DNA from: Mucilaginibacter sp. UR6-1
Lineage (GTDB): Bacteria; Bacteroidota; Bacteroidia; Sphingobacteriales; Sphingobacteriaceae
Direction: 5' to 3'
Assembly (NCBI RefSeq): GCF_020880975.1
Contig: NZ_JAJIWP010000002.1
Location: forward strand, 434,001-498,000
Length of the DNA stretch: 64,000 nt
The notes below the pieces were generated by a model. The model was not told the DNA's origin and ran no database searches. It saw only the letters and a program-made list of their open reading frames with translations. The translations under genes were made by a program, and so were the position numbers. This document shows positions 4,404 to 61,316 of the stretch, in pieces (within the stretch, counting starts at the first letter, position 1; each line of letters opens with the position of its first letter).

Positions 4404-4436
4404 CAAAGAGCCGGAAGCAATGCCGGCTCTTTGTGG
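4404..4436 (+). terminator. hairpin terminator after the acidic protein gene
   Basis: An 11-base stem (CAAAGAGCCGG and its complement at 4423-4433) closes around an eight-base loop. The T tract is short and interrupted. Confidence 0.65.
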
Positions 4437-4447
4437 TTATAGACAGT

Positions 4448-4532
4448 CGTCATTGCGAGGTACGAAGCAATCTCTTTAAGACATTCGGAATTTGACCGGC
4501 TCAAAGAGATTGCTTCGTACCTCGCAATGACG
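4448..4532. repeat. family A palindromic intergenic repeat, copy A1
   Basis: Two perfect 30-base arms, 4448-4477 and 4503-4532, begin CGTCATTGCGAGGTACGAAG and enclose a 25-base loop. Related copies occur at 19466-19548, 37616-37699 and 61071-61159, with a degenerate one near 19041-19102. No protein is encoded. Confidence 0.92.
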
Positions 4533-4553
4533 GATGAATTTTAATATAATTTC

Positions 4554-4588
4554 AGCTTCCTCTCCTTTAGGAGAGGGCTGGGGTGAGG
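4554..4588 (-). repeat. family C short hairpin repeat abutting the dnaX stop
   Basis: Read on the minus strand this is CCTCACCCCAGCCCTCTCC, a short spacer, then GGAGAGG. It begins one base after the dnaX stop codon. Copies of the same element occur at several other loci in the window. The inner arms CCTCTCC/GGAGAGG can form a hairpin. Confidence 0.8.
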
Positions 4589-4589
4589 A

Positions 4590-6431
4590 TCAATCTATCT
4601 CCAGGTTCAACTTATTTTTCAACTCCACCAATTGCGGGTTTTTGGCGGCCATATACTGAAATATTTCCTTGGCACCATAAGGTTTGCGATTGGCCTGTAC
4701 TTCATCAATACGGGTAATAATATCCAGATCAAAGTTTTTGAGGTTGCTGCGCAGATAGTTCAGCAAAAAGGGCCGTTCATCACGCAGAGATGCTTCCTGT
4801 ACCTTGGTTTCAATCACTATCTCATACAAAACGGGGTTCATCATCACCGGCTTACCGGTAAATATGGTTGAGAGTATCTTTTTACCTTCGGATTTTACAC
4901 GCTCGCCATACAGGTTCCAATAGTGTACAAATTGGTCGGGGGTAAATGCCTCCTTGTCCTCACCCTTTAAATAAGGGTCCTCCTCCTCAACAGCCACGTC
5001 ATCAAGCGCGCTCAAATTACTAAGCGATGGTATTTTGATAGAGGTGGATGGTGAATGCAGGTTGGGGATAAAAACCTTCGGCTTATCTACCGGCGGGGCT
5101 AATGCAGGGTTAGCTTGTGCTACAGGCTGAACAGGCTCCGGCCGGGGTGCCGAAACCGGCGCAGCAACAGGTGCCTGTGTTTTAACAGTATTATAACTAA
5201 CCGGATTTTCGCTCACAACCGGTAGCGGGTTAACTTCAGTGGGTTTAACTACCGGTGGGGCGGTTATTGCTGGGGTATCAGGTTTTTTTTTTACCTCCCC
5301 TTCGGGCAGTGATGTATTGGCGGCGTTGAACAGGGCGGGTAAATGGCACATTTTAAGTAGTGCCAGCTCAACCTGCAGGCGCTGGTTTTTGCTCAGTTTA
5401 TAGCTCAAATCGCACTGGTTGGCAATATTTAAGGCCGATAGCAGAAATGACACCGGTGCCGCCTGCGATTGCTGCAAATAACGGTTGCGGATATTTTCGC
5501 TTACCTCAAGCAGTTTTAAGGTCGAAGCATCCTTGCCTACCAATAGGTTACGCAAATGTTCTGAAAGGCCTGATATAAAGTGCGCGCCATCAAAACCTTT
5601 GCTTAATATCTCATCAAACAGCAGCAGCGTTTTGGCACTGTCGCCGGCCAGCAGGCTGTCGGTAACGTTAAAGTAGTAATCATAATCAAGTATGTTCAGG
5701 TTATTGATCACCGACGAATAGGTAACGTTGGCGCCTGAAAAACTTACGATCTGATCGAACATGGAAAGCGCGTCGCGCAAGCCGCCATCAGCCTTTTGGG
5801 CGATGATGTGCAAGCCGTCGGGCTCATAGTTCACCCTTTCCTTTTGGGCTATTGATGCCAGGTGCGATGCCATATCCTCCACACGGATGCGGTTAAAATC
5901 AAATATCTGGCAGCGCGAAAGGATGGTAGGCAGTATTTTATGCTTCTCGGTAGTGGCTAATATAAATATGGCGTAATTAGGTGGTTCCTCCAGCGTTTTC
6001 AGGAAGGCGTTAAATGCCGCCTGAGATAGCATGTGCACCTCATCAATAATATATACCTTATAACGGGCTGCCTGTGGCGGTATACGCACCTGGTCTATCA
6101 GGCTGCGAATATCATCAACCGAGTTGTTTGATGCTGCATCGAGCTCGTGGATGTTGAATGAATTACCGTTCATGAACGAGCGGCACGAATCGCAGGTGCC
6201 ACAAGCCTCGCCATTGGGCTGTAAATTCTGGCAGTTAATGGTTTTTGCCAGTATACGCGCGCAGGTTGTTTTGCCCACACCACGTGGCCCGCAAAACAAA
6301 AATGCCTGCGCCAGTTGGTTGTTCTTAATAGCGTTTTTGAGGGTGTTGGTTATATGTTGCTGGCCAACAACGGTTTCAAAAGTAGCCGGGCGGTATTTGC
6401 GTGCCGAAACTATAAAATTCTCCACAGGCAT
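4590..6431 (-). CDS. dnaX: DNA polymerase III subunits gamma and tau
   Basis: This is the clamp-loader ATPase of the replisome. At 613 residues it has the full AAA+ core: Walker A GPRGVGKT at 48-55, four zinc Cys at 67, 77, 80 and 83, Walker B with D130-E131 (VYIIDEVHMLS), and the sensor region (ILATTEKHKILPTILSRC). It then has a Pro/Ala/Val-rich linker (about 380-460) and a C-terminal tau-like domain (LKGEDKEAFTPDQFVHYW onward). The ATG at 6429-6431 starts MPVENFIVSARKYRPATFE, as in relatives. I looked for an obvious slippery run that would make gamma and see none with confidence. A family C repeat abuts its stop. Confidence 0.97.
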   Translation of the reverse strand: MPVENFIVSARKYRPATFETVVGQQHITNTLKNAIKNNQLAQAFLFCGPRGVGKTTCARILAKTINCQNLQPNGEACGTCDSCRSFMNGNSFNIHELDAASNNSVDDIRSLIDQVRIPPQAARYKVYIIDEVHMLSQAAFNAFLKTLEEPPNYAIFILATTEKHKILPTILSRCQIFDFNRIRVEDMASHLASIAQKERVNYEPDGLHIIAQKADGGLRDALSMFDQIVSFSGANVTYSSVINNLNILDYDYYFNVTDSLLAGDSAKTLLLFDEILSKGFDGAHFISGLSEHLRNLLVGKDASTLKLLEVSENIRNRYLQQSQAAPVSFLLSALNIANQCDLSYKLSKNQRLQVELALLKMCHLPALFNAANTSLPEGEVKKKPDTPAITAPPVVKPTEVNPLPVVSENPVSYNTVKTQAPVAAPVSAPRPEPVQPVAQANPALAPPVDKPKVFIPNLHSPSTSIKIPSLSNLSALDDVAVEEEDPYLKGEDKEAFTPDQFVHYWNLYGERVKSEGKKILSTIFTGKPVMMNPVLYEIVIETKVQEASLRDERPFLLNYLRSNLKNFDLDIITRIDEVQANRKPYGAKEIFQYMAAKNPQLVELKNKLNLEID

Positions 6432-6493
6432 AAAGGTAGCTAAAAACTTTGGTAACGATAAACAGGTGTTGGTAAAATTAGCGGTGCTATAAA

Positions 6494-6528
6494 CCTCACC
6501 CCGGCCCTCTCCTAAAGGAGGGGGAGCT
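6494..6528 (-). repeat. family C short hairpin repeat
   Basis: CCTCACCCCGGCCCTCTCCT followed by AAAGGAGGGGGAGCT, about 60 bases upstream of dnaX. It has the same core as the copy at 4554-4588, in the opposite orientation. Confidence 0.8.
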
Positions 6529-6542
6529 GAAAATTAATAAAT

Positions 6543-6627
6543 CTGTCATTCCGAACGTGGTACGAGGAGGAATCTGCCTGCGTTCATAACCAAGCGACGG
6601 ATTTCTCGCTATCGCTCGAAATGACAG
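6543..6627. repeat. family B imperfect palindromic repeat, copy B1
   Basis: The left end is CTGTCATTCCGAACG and the right end CGCTCGAAATGACAG. The inner parts carry GGTACGAGGAGGAATC and GATTTCTCGCTATCG, which pair imperfectly. Other copies are at 36558-36642, 37013-37092 and 61181-61316. Confidence 0.88.
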
Positions 6628-6650
6628 AATAAATATTGTTAGGCGGTTTG

Positions 6651-6683
6651 CTATCTCTCCTGCAGGATAGGGCTGGGGTGAGG
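6651..6683 (-). repeat. family C repeat directly against a stop codon
   Basis: The plus strand reads CTATCTCTCCTGCAGGATAG followed by GGCTGGGGTGAGG. It ends at 6683, and the stop codon of the next gene starts at 6684. Confidence 0.78.
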
Positions 6684-7079
6684 TTACTTTAATCTTTCCA
6701 AAACGCCCCTGCGTTTTACAATATTTTTATAGTCCCACTGTATATCGCGAGCCTTGGTAAGCCAACGTTGCAATGTTTGGCCATCTATTTGCGCTGCCGA
6801 TGTATACCGCGCTTCGGCGGCTTTGAATTTGCCCTCGTTTTGCAGGCCGGATTCCTCAAACGTCTGTCCGCTCCAAAACAGCAGGCGAACATTACCTTTA
6901 AGTTTGCTGTAACCGGCCACCGGGTTGCCATCTAAAAACCAAACAGGATGCGCGTGCCATATCTTTGATTCGGCCTCGGGCAGTCCGGATGCAATGGCAT
7001 TGGCCAGCAGGTTGCATATCTCCTGATCGGCGGGTGTTTGCTGGTTGTTGTAGTCCTGTACTTCTTGCGTAATAGCCAT
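6684..7079 (-). CDS. DUF1801-family (YdhG-like) protein
   Basis: This 131-residue cytoplasmic protein has the DUF1801 fold signature: an N-terminal helix region, then SKIWHAHPVWFLDGNPVAGYSKLKG and RLLFWSG. A C-terminal helical tail reads AQIDGQTLQRWLTKARDIQWDY. Family members resemble the iron-binding CyaY/YjbR fold, but no biochemical role is established. It is a distant relative of the 206-residue gene at 11.8 kb. Its stop codon abuts a family C repeat, and no promoter consensus is visible upstream. The start MAITQEVQDYNNQQTP is the best ATG. Confidence 0.8.
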   Translation of the reverse strand: MAITQEVQDYNNQQTPADQEICNLLANAIASGLPEAESKIWHAHPVWFLDGNPVAGYSKLKGNVRLLFWSGQTFEESGLQNEGKFKAAEARYTSAAQIDGQTLQRWLTKARDIQWDYKNIVKRRGVLERLK

Positions 7080-19272: not shown

Positions 19273-19459
19273 ATGAAGATGCTGTACTTTATCAAAGGGT
19301 ATACTAATCGAAATGACTGTAGCTTTATATTATCGTCAGTCTGCTCTTGGCCGCAGAGGCCAGTTAATGCCCTTGGTGCGAAAGTAACTAAACATCAAGG
19401 CAGAAAAACCACAAGGCTATACTCCCGGCCCGGTTTTCTGTCAGGCCTACGCTCTTTTT
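19273..19459 (+). repeat. family E dispersed repeat, copy E1
   Basis: The segment includes CTGCTCTTGGCCGCAGAGGC, ATCAAGGCAGAAAAACC and CCCGGCCCGGTTTTCTG, and ends CTACGCTCTTTTTT. The same blocks in the same order occur in the opposite orientation at 36658-36818. E1 is followed within six bases by family A copy A2. Confidence 0.8.
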
Positions 19460-19465
19460 TTAAAG

Positions 19466-19548
19466 CGTCATTGCGAGGTACGAAGCAATCTCTTTAGGAC
19501 GATCTTCAAACAAATCGCTTGGGGATTGCTTCGTACCTCGCAATGACG
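19466..19548. repeat. family A palindromic repeat, copy A2
   Basis: The outer 25 bases of each side are perfect inverted repeats (CGTCATTGCGAGGTACGAAG...). The inner bases (TCTCTTTAGG versus CGCTTGGG) no longer pair. Confidence 0.9.
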
Positions 19549-36642: not shown

Positions 36643-36657
36643 ATTGGTGATTGACAA

Positions 36658-36818
36658 AAAGAGCGTAGGGTTGGCAGAAAACCGGGCCGGGTGTATGGCC
36701 TCGTGGGTGGAAGGTTTTTTCTGCCTTGACCTTTGGTTACTTTGTGTCTAATACAAAGTAACTGGCCTCTGCGGCCAAGAGCAGGCTAACGATAGTAAAA
36801 ACATAGCATCTTCATAAA
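36658..36818 (-). repeat. family E dispersed repeat, copy E2
   Basis: The minus strand has ATGAAGATGCTATGTTTTTA, CTGCTCTTGGCCGCAGAGGC, CAAGGCAGAAAAAACC and CGGCCCGGTTTTCTGCC in the order found in E1. An extra self-complementary block (ACTTTGTATTAGACACAAAGT) sits in the middle. It directly follows B2. Confidence 0.8.
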
Positions 36819-37615: not shown

Positions 37616-37699
37616 CATCACTGCGAGGTACGAAGCAATCTCTTTTGAGCAAATCAAATACTAATCGCTGTAGAGATTGCTTCGTACCTCGCAATAACG
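37616..37699. repeat. family A palindromic repeat, copy A3
   Basis: CTGCGAGGTACGAAGCAATC and GATTGCTTCGTACCTCGCA are inverted, with outer ends that have diverged (CATCA versus TAACG). Apart from A3 and the C-like element, the gap 37471-37758 shows nothing recognisable. Confidence 0.88.
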
Positions 37700-37725
37700 T
37701 GAATGTTTATTTATGTAAAGTGGTT

Positions 37726-37758
37726 CTCCCCAAGGGAAGATTTAGGAGGGCTGGAGGT
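37726..37758 (-). repeat. family C-like hairpin abutting the helicase stop
   Basis: CTCCCCAAGGGAAGATTTAG followed by GAGGGCTGGAGG. It ends one base before the helicase stop codon at 37759-37761. Confidence 0.65.
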
Positions 37759-39084
37759 TTACCCCCTTTTGTTACCGCCAGGCCTTGCGCCACTCATGCC
37801 GCTGCCGCCACCTTTACCTTTACCGGCACCAACGCGGTTGCTGTTGTTGCGGCGTTTATTGTTGCGCTGCTTCTCGGCTGATGATGGTTTATTATGGTGA
37901 GGCTGTTTTTTCAGATCCTGTAAAATGCGTTGCTCGCGGGTAAGCTGAGCTAAAGGGTAAGGGTGCGAATCGTTAACCGCAACTTTTACGCCGATCAGCT
38001 TTTCAATATCCTTTAAAAAATCTTTTTCTTCCTCATCGCAAAATGAAATGGCCTTGCCGCTTGCACCTGCACGCCCGGTACGGCCAATGCGGTGTACATA
38101 AGTTTCGGGTATGTTGGGCAGTTCATAGTTAATTACAAAGGCAAGCTCATCAATATCAATACCACGGGCGGCAATATCAGTAGCCACCAATACACGGGTG
38201 GTATGCGCCTTAAAGTTGTTAAGGGCACGCTGCCTCGCGTTTTGCGATTTGTTGCCGTGTATAGCTTCGGCAGTAATGCCCACCTTGTTCAGGTCTTTTA
38301 CCACCTTATCGGCACCGTGCTTGGTGCGGGTAAATACCAGCGCGGTTACAATGGTTTTATCCTGTAATACAAAGTTAAGCAGGCTTTTTTTATCGCCTTT
38401 GGCAACAAAGTACATTTCCTGCTGTATGGTTTCGGCGGTTGATGATACCGGAGTTACTTCAACACGTTCGGGTTTGTTCAAAATGCTGTCGGCAAGTTGC
38501 TGTATCTCTTTTGGCATGGTGGCCGAAAAAAACAGCGTTTGCCTTTTGGCAGGCACCTTGGCTATAATCTTCTTAACATCGTGCACAAAGCCCATATCCA
38601 GCATACGGTCGGCCTCGTCTAATATAAGCATCTGTATGTGGTCAAGGTGAATGAAACGCTGGTTCATCAGGTCTAACAAACGGCCGGGCGTGGCCACCAA
38701 TATATCAACGCCTTTTTTAAGCGCGTCAGTTTGCGGGTTTTGCGATACACCGCCGAATATTACCAGGTGTTTAAGGCCGGTATGTTTACCGTATGCGCTA
38801 AGGCTTTCGCCAATTTGTATGGCCAGCTCGCGGGTTGGGGTTAAAATTAGCGCCTTAATGGTTTTTTGCTCGCGGTGCTGCTGGCGTTGCTCATAAAGCA
38901 GTTGCAATGTTGGTATTGAAAAGGCCGCTGTTTTGCCGGTGCCGGTTTGGGCGCAGCCCAGCAAATCCTTTTTTTGTAGTATAATGGGTATTGATTGCGC
39001 TTGTATTGGGGTAGGTTGAGTATAACCCTCGGCTTGTAACGCCTTTAATATAGGGTCAATTAAATTAAGTTGCTGAAATGACAT
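37759..39084 (-). CDS. DEAD-box RNA helicase, RhlE/CshA-like
   Basis: This 441-residue ATP-dependent RNA helicase unwinds RNA duplexes during ribosome assembly or mRNA decay. The motifs are in order: Q motif ([13 protein letters not shown]), [22 protein letters not shown] in [13 protein letters not shown], the ARGIDIDEL region and [10 protein letters not shown]. The C-terminal tail (about 375-441) is basic and Gly/Asn-rich ([20 protein letters not shown]), a typical RNA-binding extension. A -7 element lies about 90 bases upstream, leaving a long leader as in cold-regulated helicase genes. Confidence 0.95.
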
Positions 39085-42211: not shown

Positions 42212-42424
42212 ATGAAAAAGGGCGATACCGTACACTGGAACTGGGGCAGCAGCGAGGCTGAAGGCAAAATTGAAAAAAAGCACACCGGGAAGGTGGAGAA
42301 AACCATAAAGGGCAGCAAAGTAACACGCAACGCCAGTAAGGATAAGCCAGCTTACGAAGTAAAGCAAAAAGATGGCGGCAAAGTGCTTAAATCAGAAAGT
42401 GAACTGAAGAAGGGCGGTAAGTAA
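42212..42424 (+). CDS. DUF2945 (HVA1/Tudor-like) small basic protein
   Basis: This 70-residue Lys-rich protein begins MKKGDTVHWNWGSSEAEGKIEKKHTG and ends in YEVKQKDGGKVLKSESELKKGG, the signature of DUF2945, also called the hypervirulence-associated Tudor-like domain. The predicted fold is a small SH3/Tudor barrel. No function is proven. A family C repeat follows immediately after its stop. Length and sequence fit the family closely. Confidence 0.88.
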   Translation: MKKGDTVHWNWGSSEAEGKIEKKHTGKVEKTIKGSKVTRNASKDKPAYEVKQKDGGKVLKSESELKKGGK

Positions 42425-42425
42425 C

Positions 42426-42471
42426 ACCCCCTCGCACCACACCCCAACCCTCTCCATAGGAGAGGGAGTAA
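42426..42471 (+). repeat. family C repeat starting right after the DUF2945 stop
   Basis: CCCCCTCGCACCACACCCCA then ACCCTCTCC-ATA-GGAGAGGG. The element begins one to two bases past the TAA and has the same polarity toward the gene as the copies next to dnaX and the DUF1801 gene. Confidence 0.78.
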
Positions 42472-42542
42472 TAAAAAAAGCCGTCCTATTAATGATGTAC
42501 GATGAGAAGTCAGTATCGTTTGGTATGGCAACAGGTGCGTAT

Positions 42543-61035: not shown

Positions 61036-61070
61036 TTTTAATTTGTTTTAAACTTACGTATTCGGGAATG

Positions 61071-61159
61071 CGTCATTGCGAGGTACAAAGCAATCTCTTT
61101 ATGCACAAACTACGTCGGAATGTATTAAAGAGATTGCTTCACCATCGTTCGCAATGACG
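61071..61159. repeat. family A palindromic repeat, copy A4
   Basis: CGTCATTGCGAGGTACAAAG at the left and CGTTCGCAATGACG at the right, with inner AATCTCTTT/AAAGAGATT arms. One arm has diverged around TTCACCATCG. Confidence 0.85.
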
Positions 61160-61180: not shown

Positions 61181-61316
61181 TGTCATTTCGAACGAGGTAC
61201 GAGGAGAAATCTGCCGCTTTGATAACCTCACCCCAGCCCTCTCCTGAAGTAGAGGGAGCTAAAAATATCGGCTTTAGGACATCAACAGTTAGATTTCTCG
61301 CTATCGCTCGAAATGA
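61181..61316. repeat. family B palindromic repeat, copy B4, with a family C element inserted in its loop
   Basis: TGTCATTTCGAACGAGGTAC starts the left arm and TTTCTCGCTATCGCTCGAAA ends the right arm. The loop holds ACCTCACCCCAGCCCTCTCC and AGAGGGAGCT (61225-61260), a complete family C copy. With A4 this fills the 61036-61404 gap; nothing else was recognised there apart from the osmC terminator. Confidence 0.85.

Follow-up and report, generated by a model that had tools for sequence, protein, structure and literature searches.

The short repeat called family C, five copies of which lie in the window (the whole 64,000-nucleotide stretch of DNA analysed here), is on balance probably a class II triplex repeat related to the BoxC/PIT/TM elements, often placed head-first behind stop codons that existed before it, and not a terminator; this explanation covers the present genus and three further genomes, one from each of three other families of the class. 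In overall appearance, C resembles an insertion more than a transcription terminator. The five copies compare with 0.04 expected after dinucleotide shuffling (up to 3 mismatches), and two of the five are flush with a gene end, flush meaning throughout that 0-8 nt separate the end of C from a stop or a start (Table 1).

BoxC/PIT elements were described decades ago and, to our knowledge, have since been given neither a function nor a placement rule. The lineage studied here offers a sharp, polar stop-codon rule for a close relative of these elements, with tens of copies and in many genomes, and since so many natural copies come with a polar rule, a role in RNA, a role in replication, and mere insertion become testable by comparing orientation and spacing.

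Table 1. Repeats of family C in the window, with the neighbouring genes and other repeats
Feature	Position	Strand	Remarks
Terminator-like hairpin (AAAGAGCCGGC...GCCGGCTCTTT)	4404..4433	.	separate from C; past both C and A, in the gap separating dnaX from its convergent neighbour; -19.0 kcal/mol, z -4.5; counterparts readable by eye in relatives G052 and G085
Family A palindrome (CGTCATTGCGAGG...)	4448..4532	.	arms 4448-4480 / 4500-4532, 97% complementary
C copy, flush at dnaX stop	4549..4588	-	head end 4588, hairpin beyond; 1-nt linker (4589); RNA fold -17.3 kcal/mol, z -3.8
dnaX (DNA polymerase III gamma/tau)	4590..6431	-	TGA 4590-4592; Pfam PF13177, PF22608, PF12169; same-genus relatives lacking C keep its C-terminus and stop position
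C copy	6494..6533	+	head toward dnaX start, 62 nt upstream; one end of composite C-B-B'-C'; fold z only -1.1
Family B inverted pair	6544..6631	.	between two C copies; mostly missing in relative G085
C copy, flush at DUF1801 stop	6644..6683	-	head end 6683; 0-nt linker; hairpin partly decayed, fold like shuffles (z 0.1)
DUF1801 gene	6684..7079	-	TAA 6684-6686; Pfam PF08818
Degenerate D-type relative (...CCCTCCTAAATCTTCCC...)	37714..37751	-	by eye; core ~7 nt past helicase stop; clearer D copy at helicase stop in relative G052
DEAD-box helicase	37759-39084	-	stop 37759-37761
Hva1_TUDOR gene	42212-42424	+	Pfam match; named DUF2945 in the earlier note
C copy	42437..42475	+	head 12 nt past Hva1_TUDOR (DUF2945) stop
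C copy away from gene ends	61226..61265	+	B copy precedes; start 190 nt from head, stop 145 nt from tail; fold z only -0.5

Anatomy and predicted triplex layout of family C

Family C is a repeat of ~37 nt, made of an unpaired C-rich head, CCTC[A/T]CCC(C), a spacer of 2-3 nt, and then a hairpin of 8-9 bp whose stem begins about 9-11 nt into the repeat with C-G pairs, and in nearly all copies a purine stands directly before the head. The alignment of 25 copies from the own genome gives the consensus CCTCACCCC-RG-CCCTCTCC-(T)AAA-GGAGAGGG-AGYTRAAA; in its rows 95.0% of the stem cells are paired vs. 93.7% in shuffles, a slight excess, and covariation is equally slight, two pairs having changes on both sides. 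When the five window copies were folded, two (4549 and 42437) did clearly better than shuffles, and a scan of the window against Rfam gave no match at gathering scores.

The left stem arm is mirrored by the head, with A tolerated in the head where the arm has T, and read on the opposite strand the order is pyrimidine arm, loop, purine arm, short loop, and third strand. Because of this mirroring, the opposite strand is laid out as a purine-motif class II intrastrand triplex, and this triplex-type layout in turn makes C a relative of the E. coli BoxC/PIT elements. We described the PIT motif as a pyrimidine arm, a loop, a purine arm, a loop of 1-6, and a third strand with at most 1 mismatch under the antiparallel rule G.GC / A.AT / T.AT, and this is the architecture that C has, as far as its letters can tell. 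The third-strand rule was counted over 446 hairpins with 8-nt purine arms from 178 fetched loci, palindromic hairpins being counted on both strands: perfect third strands on the 3' side numbered 194 in the antiparallel sense vs. 5 in the parallel control, and 8 of the 10 arm 8-mers had at least one antiparallel match, some of these 8-mers being shifted registers of one another. With the C-type arms excluded, 26 hairpins were left, with 9 antiparallel and 0 parallel third strands, and when 1 mismatch was allowed, the mirror rule did not separate from its control (218 vs. 193). Since these counts include non-C arms, the common trait of the families is the architecture, and not one sequence alone; a looser triplex-motif scan gave 144 matches, 91 of them C-like by a simple head pattern. 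From this agreement of both architecture and sequence, we class family C as a predicted class II intrastrand triplex.

The likeness to the E. coli elements is close, given that BoxC/PIT/TM_ECO and C have the same succession of pyrimidine arm, loop, purine arm, short loop, and purine-motif third strand, that their letters are near-identical (CCCTCTCC...GGAGAGGG..GGGGTGAGG), and that both are dispersed and mostly intergenic. In its layout, the E. coli TM sequence CCCTCTCCCTGTGGGAGAGGGCCGGGGTGAGGGC matches the opposite strand of C (PMC4666352, Table 1). Triplex folding in vitro is reported for E. coli TM on the basis of CD and NMR. The strict TM_ECO pattern is 5'-CCCTCNCCC N3-6 GGGNGAGGG N3 GGGNGAGGG with stems of 9 nt (PMC4666352), and C falls outside it because its arms CCCTCTCC/GGAGAGGG are 8 nt long in most copies (consensus, by eye). 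TM_ECO was listed in 262 proteobacterial genomes (Holder et al. 2015, PMC4666352), and the words Bacteroidetes, Pedobacter, and Mucilaginibacter are absent from the main text of that paper. As for placement, the E. coli TM elements lie 10-310 nt from ORFs, more often upstream, without chromosome-strand bias and with no preferred distance to genes, and the cited parts of the same source report no gene-end polarity for them (PMC4666352), in contrast to C, which is often head-flush at stops. Among the matches listed for an open-access library, we found no BoxC/PIT-type repeat with a polar placement at 0-4 nt, and a search with the raw letters of the C motif gave only unrelated papers among the matches listed.

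Polar placement of C behind stop codons, older than C at three loci

The earlier note had C copies lying 0-2 bases from three stops and a variant abutting a fourth, repeatedly and with one polarity. The first two placements hold, with linkers of 1 nt to the dnaX TGA and 0 nt to the DUF1801 TAA; the DUF2945 copy stands 12 nt away, and the repeat at the helicase, ~7 nt from the stop, is a degenerate D-type of another family. The polarity was borne out beyond the window; within it, two of the five C copies are flush.

The genome-wide count of distances by orientation that the note had called for was made on genes called with a purpose-built hexamer ORF caller, compared by eye with the ORF list of the window. 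Pooling, which removed 9 duplicate contexts, left 238 unique copies from 20 genomes, 189 of them intergenic, and of these 79 were head-flush and 7 tail-flush at stops (binomial p = 1.5e-16, a value that takes copies as independent while some may be common by descent between species); at starts, 12 were head-flush and 0 tail-flush. In the own genome, 14 of the 28 intergenic copies were head-flush at stops and 0 tail-flush. Set 1, with 131 copies from 4 genomes (46 of 56 and 85 of 90 matches were taken, weaker or partial ones being omitted, and 8 copies each from the 50 and 54 found in G021 and G022), had 114 intergenic copies, with 48 head-flush and 3 tail-flush at stops and 8 and 0 at starts; the random means were 2.5 head-stop, 2.4 tail-stop, and 2.8 head-start contacts over every gap in these loci, and 2.1, 2.0, and 1.4, respectively, over the element-bearing gaps alone. 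Set 2, with 85 copies from 17 genomes among the matches listed (some omitted, mainly near contig ends or in G021/G022; G021 adds one copy and the other 16 genomes are new), had 61 intergenic copies, with 23 head-flush and 2 tail-flush at stops and 3 and 0 at starts, against random means of 1.5 head-stop, 1.6 tail-stop, and 1.9 head-start. The preference reaches three genomes, each from another family of the class, where 21 of 31 copies were intergenic (31 of 35 matches, 30 loci from 53 matches, overlapping set 2 in those three genomes), and 11 of the 21 were head-flush and 3 tail-flush at stops, with 1 head-flush and 0 tail-flush at starts.

The linker from stop to head is 0-4 nt in 71 of the 79 flush copies, and the distances from head to stop form a sharp spike at 0-4 over a nearly flat background. 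From the stop to the first base of the left arm there are 10-18 nt in all 71 of the 79 flush copies in which the arm was recognised, a range whose lower bound is partly built in, since the search for the left arm started 9 nt into the repeat. Tail-first copies at 9-26 nt behind stops number 4, without enrichment. Among 168 same-genus intergenic copies tabulated by orientation, the head is nearer than the tail whatever it faces, by 38:2, 60:5, 35:12, and 11:4 (the last not significant); given that the 35 vs. 12 belongs to copies with the head toward a start and the tail toward a stop, the asymmetry extends beyond stops. Better and worse preserved copies are flush at much the same rate, 6/14 and 8/14 in G000 and 15/37 and 13/37 in G011, as would be expected if placement is set early. 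Low-flush genomes also occur (G003 with 0/5 and G022 with 1/6 sampled intergenic copies), and among near-identical elements in other lineages 2 of 21 were head-flush and 1 of 21 tail-flush within 8 nt; this rarity, together with the lack of a preferred distance in E. coli TM elements (PMC4666352), speaks against a universal rule.

The stops themselves are older than C at three loci, dnaX, DUF1801, and DUF2945, because relatives without C have the same stops. Among 15 other same-genus dnaX loci, 14 end at the corresponding residue without C by eye (one of them with only 11 nt of flank), the fifteenth being cut by the contig, and G052 has by eye a decayed C 2 nt past its dnaX stop. In the case of DUF1801, G001 has its stop at the same position without the element, and in G085 a diverged element stands flush behind the stop; in the case of DUF2945, the gene stops at the same place without C in G052, G085, and G001, and ends two codons later, also without C, in G107. 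The spike, the fixed polarity, and the recurrence in further genomes agree with the earlier view that C is not random debris, and with the age of the stops they favour an insertion preference for gene ends, one of the two explanations then offered.

Terminator, ribosome, flank, and target readings of the placement

The other explanation then offered, a dispersed terminator module, in which C would be the intrinsic transcription terminator of the gene it abuts, is not supported by the sequence evidence, and we hold it to be very unlikely. A GC-rich hairpin of 8-9 bp near the stop, the GGGCTTTT in which some copies end, and the usually distant next co-directional gene (median 128 nt, smallest 9, for 43 flush copies) would all suit a terminator, but T-runs are not enriched, at least 4 T following the hairpin in 6/68 flush vs. 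16/100 other copies, and a strict intrinsic-terminator scan gains only 3/72 flush gene ends when C is included. Past C, terminators are called at 10/72 of these ends, much the same rate as at gene ends without C (70/437), and several of these calls begin immediately after C (44-53 nt), so that its tail could be part of them. Moreover, a separate terminator-like hairpin is kept at dnaX beyond C and A, and PIT elements have no terminator activity in E. coli according to Holder 2015 (PMC4666352), citing Hoyne and Maher. Judged by a GC hairpin followed by a T-run, the family does not look like an intrinsic terminator; single copies may still qualify.

Returning to the triplex-type repeat set head-first behind pre-existing stops, we suggest that insertion itself, or an event shortly afterwards, sets the polarity, given that only the head-first orientation would separate the stop from the hairpin by an unstructured spacer and thereby make the hairpin begin at the edge of the terminating ribosome. 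Any action of C in the mRNA would then resemble that of an E. coli REP lying just past a stop, possibly by protecting the 3' end or by affecting terminating ribosomes. A stronger version, in which C was inserted or kept with its third-strand end against the in-frame stop and its placement is coupled to translation termination, is tentative and in our view unlikely; if true, the spread of C would depend on where ribosomes stop. The ribosome edge would account for the rarity of tail-first flush copies, and not alone for the head-first enrichment, and the tail-first copies with enough room (9-26 nt), which are not enriched, speak against it. Head-flush copies at the starts of divergent genes (12 vs. 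0 tail) are not predicted by a 3'-end function; they stand above random in set 1 (8 vs. 2.8) and hardly so in set 2 (3 vs. 1.9).

It is also conceivable, if improbable, that C inserts anywhere in a gap and that its triplex-forming strand stalls replication on the head side, the flank on that side being deleted until coding sequence is reached, which would bring the head flush to stops and, more rarely, to starts. The nearness of the head whatever it faces (all four ratios above) and the 12 head-flush against 0 tail-flush starts fit such one-sided loss, as do the block of DNA polymerase by PIT elements in vitro and the small intergenic deletions at E. coli TM loci (PMC4666352); yet more decayed copies are not flush more often, the 0-4 spike is sharp over a nearly flat background, and no ongoing loss is seen at DUF1801, whose flush element is common to G000 and G085, genomes with ~84% nucleotide identity in dnaX. 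A target-sequence preference, in which the mobilising activity recognises T-R-A plus purines in DNA that stops merely contain, is in our estimate quite unlikely. It agrees with the G or A that precedes the head in 75/79 flush and 92/96 other intergenic copies, with a stop triplet right at the head in 17/96 non-flush intergenic copies vs. about 5-6 expected from the background rate, and with the enrichment of G in the second-last codon before flush stops (0.43 vs. 0.25). However, non-flush copies have stop triplets at offsets 1-4 at close to the background rate (9, 5, 8, and 5 of 96), and at flush starts a stop triplet lies within 5 nt in 6/9 copies, as does the reversed-triplet control (6/9). 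Besides, gene stops are probably a small minority of such triplets in a gap, and therefore this preference alone would not give 42% flush copies.

Two further candidates were rejected: pairing of the gene 3' end with the C-rich head was not above control (4.33 vs. 4.16), and, for a composition boundary as the target, the flanks of non-flush intergenic copies do not differ in GC (head 0.395, tail 0.405). In C copies called inside genes, the GC of the head flank was 0.476 vs. 0.393 for the tail flank (p 0.002).

Related repeats, mobilisation, and distribution

The location of REPs near stops is established, and C can be likened by position to the E. coli REPs, since both have a hairpin close behind the stop (10-18 nt for C); ribosomes are reported to stall where such a REP lies up to 15 nt from the stop (PMC12306157, citing Liang et al. 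2015). The GTAG- and CGTC-tagged REPs are small hairpins with an unpaired tag, mostly near ORF 3' ends (PMC3733652), and the CGTC tag is reported to vary to CCTC (Di Nocera et al. 2013, PMC3733652). Families A and B have the heads CGTC/TGTC, as in CGTC-tagged REPs (PMC3733652). C itself starts with CCTC, but it lies outside the CGTC REPs, which have a stem of 8-9 bp with AT at the first two positions (PMC3733652), whereas the stem of C begins ~9-11 nt in with C-G pairs; C also differs in its longer unpaired head, its GC stem, and its third-strand rule. The distances reported for the tagged REPs are below 20 bp, and the cited parts of that source describe no spike at 0-4 nt confined to the head (PMC3733652).

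In A and B, the hairpins begin ~4 nt into the repeat, and the heads mostly follow a stop by 9-26 nt (14 copies of A, 13 of B) and seldom by 0-8 nt (2 and 3 copies), 5 near-stop copies being common to both searches and counted in both. Given the start of the stems at ~4 nt in A and B and ~9-11 nt in C, the hairpins of all three families begin, apart from a few, about 10 nt or more past the stop.

The covariance model found 30 C copies in the own genome at E<=0.01 and had matches in 30 of 41 genomes and 9 of 17 genera, and exact copies of the near-fixed C 35-mer stand in at least 21 named contigs, which come from several phyla and are mostly MAGs, a list that may omit records near the window's own genome and that has two isolates by title, Buttiauxella and Marinifilum. 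On the G011 chromosome, 41 C copies lie on the plus and 45 on the minus strand, without bias (arc test p 0.51). We also considered C as a REP mobilised by a RAYT and rejected it, since the own genome with its 30 C copies has 0 matches to Y1_Tnp (PF01797), and the matches in 19 of 21 relatives are by eye unrelated to C copy number, G010 having 6 matches and 1 C copy and G011 2 weak matches and 86 copies. In G011, a weak RAYT-like match (2025086) lies near a C copy (2024627).

Inverted structures in the window

A composite inverted structure of about 190 bp, in which the heads of both C copies point outward, is found in the window, and its counterpart in the relative G085 retains two C copies, both diverged, with the B pair mostly missing. 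The palindromes of family A, whose ends are CGTC-like, resemble the REPs with a CGTC tag described by Di Nocera et al., and a longer repeat, present as an inverted pair, is separate from C.

Inverted repeats of the window
Feature	Window position	Description
Composite	6494-6683	order C, B, inverted B, inverted C
Family A palindrome	4448-4532	CGTC-like ends
Family A palindrome	19466-19548	CGTC-like ends
Family A palindrome	37618-37699	CGTC-like ends
Family A palindrome	61068-61159	CGTC-like ends
Longer repeat, inverted pair	19324-19464 and 36651-36801	arms 56 and 43 nt; complementarity 86 and 91%

C heads at start codons

C also lies head-flush at the start codons of divergent genes, at L195, L221, L223, L186, L189, and L238 in the relative G011 and at L150 in the window's own genome (G000), and these copies carry a GGGGTGAGG-like sequence 2–5 nt upstream of the ATG which resembles a Shine-Dalgarno sequence.

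C in other genomes

Exact matches (L119-L139) to the 35-nt C core lie on contigs whose titles name members of Bacteroidota, Chloroflexi, Verrucomicrobia, Nitrospirae, Melainabacteria, Gracilibacteria, and Proteobacteria; the contigs are for the most part MAGs and may therefore be contaminated. In G011 (contig C1), the C copy at 2024627 (L201) has a Y1_Tnp match nearby, at 2025086; this match is RAYT-like but weak, scoring under the family's cut-off.
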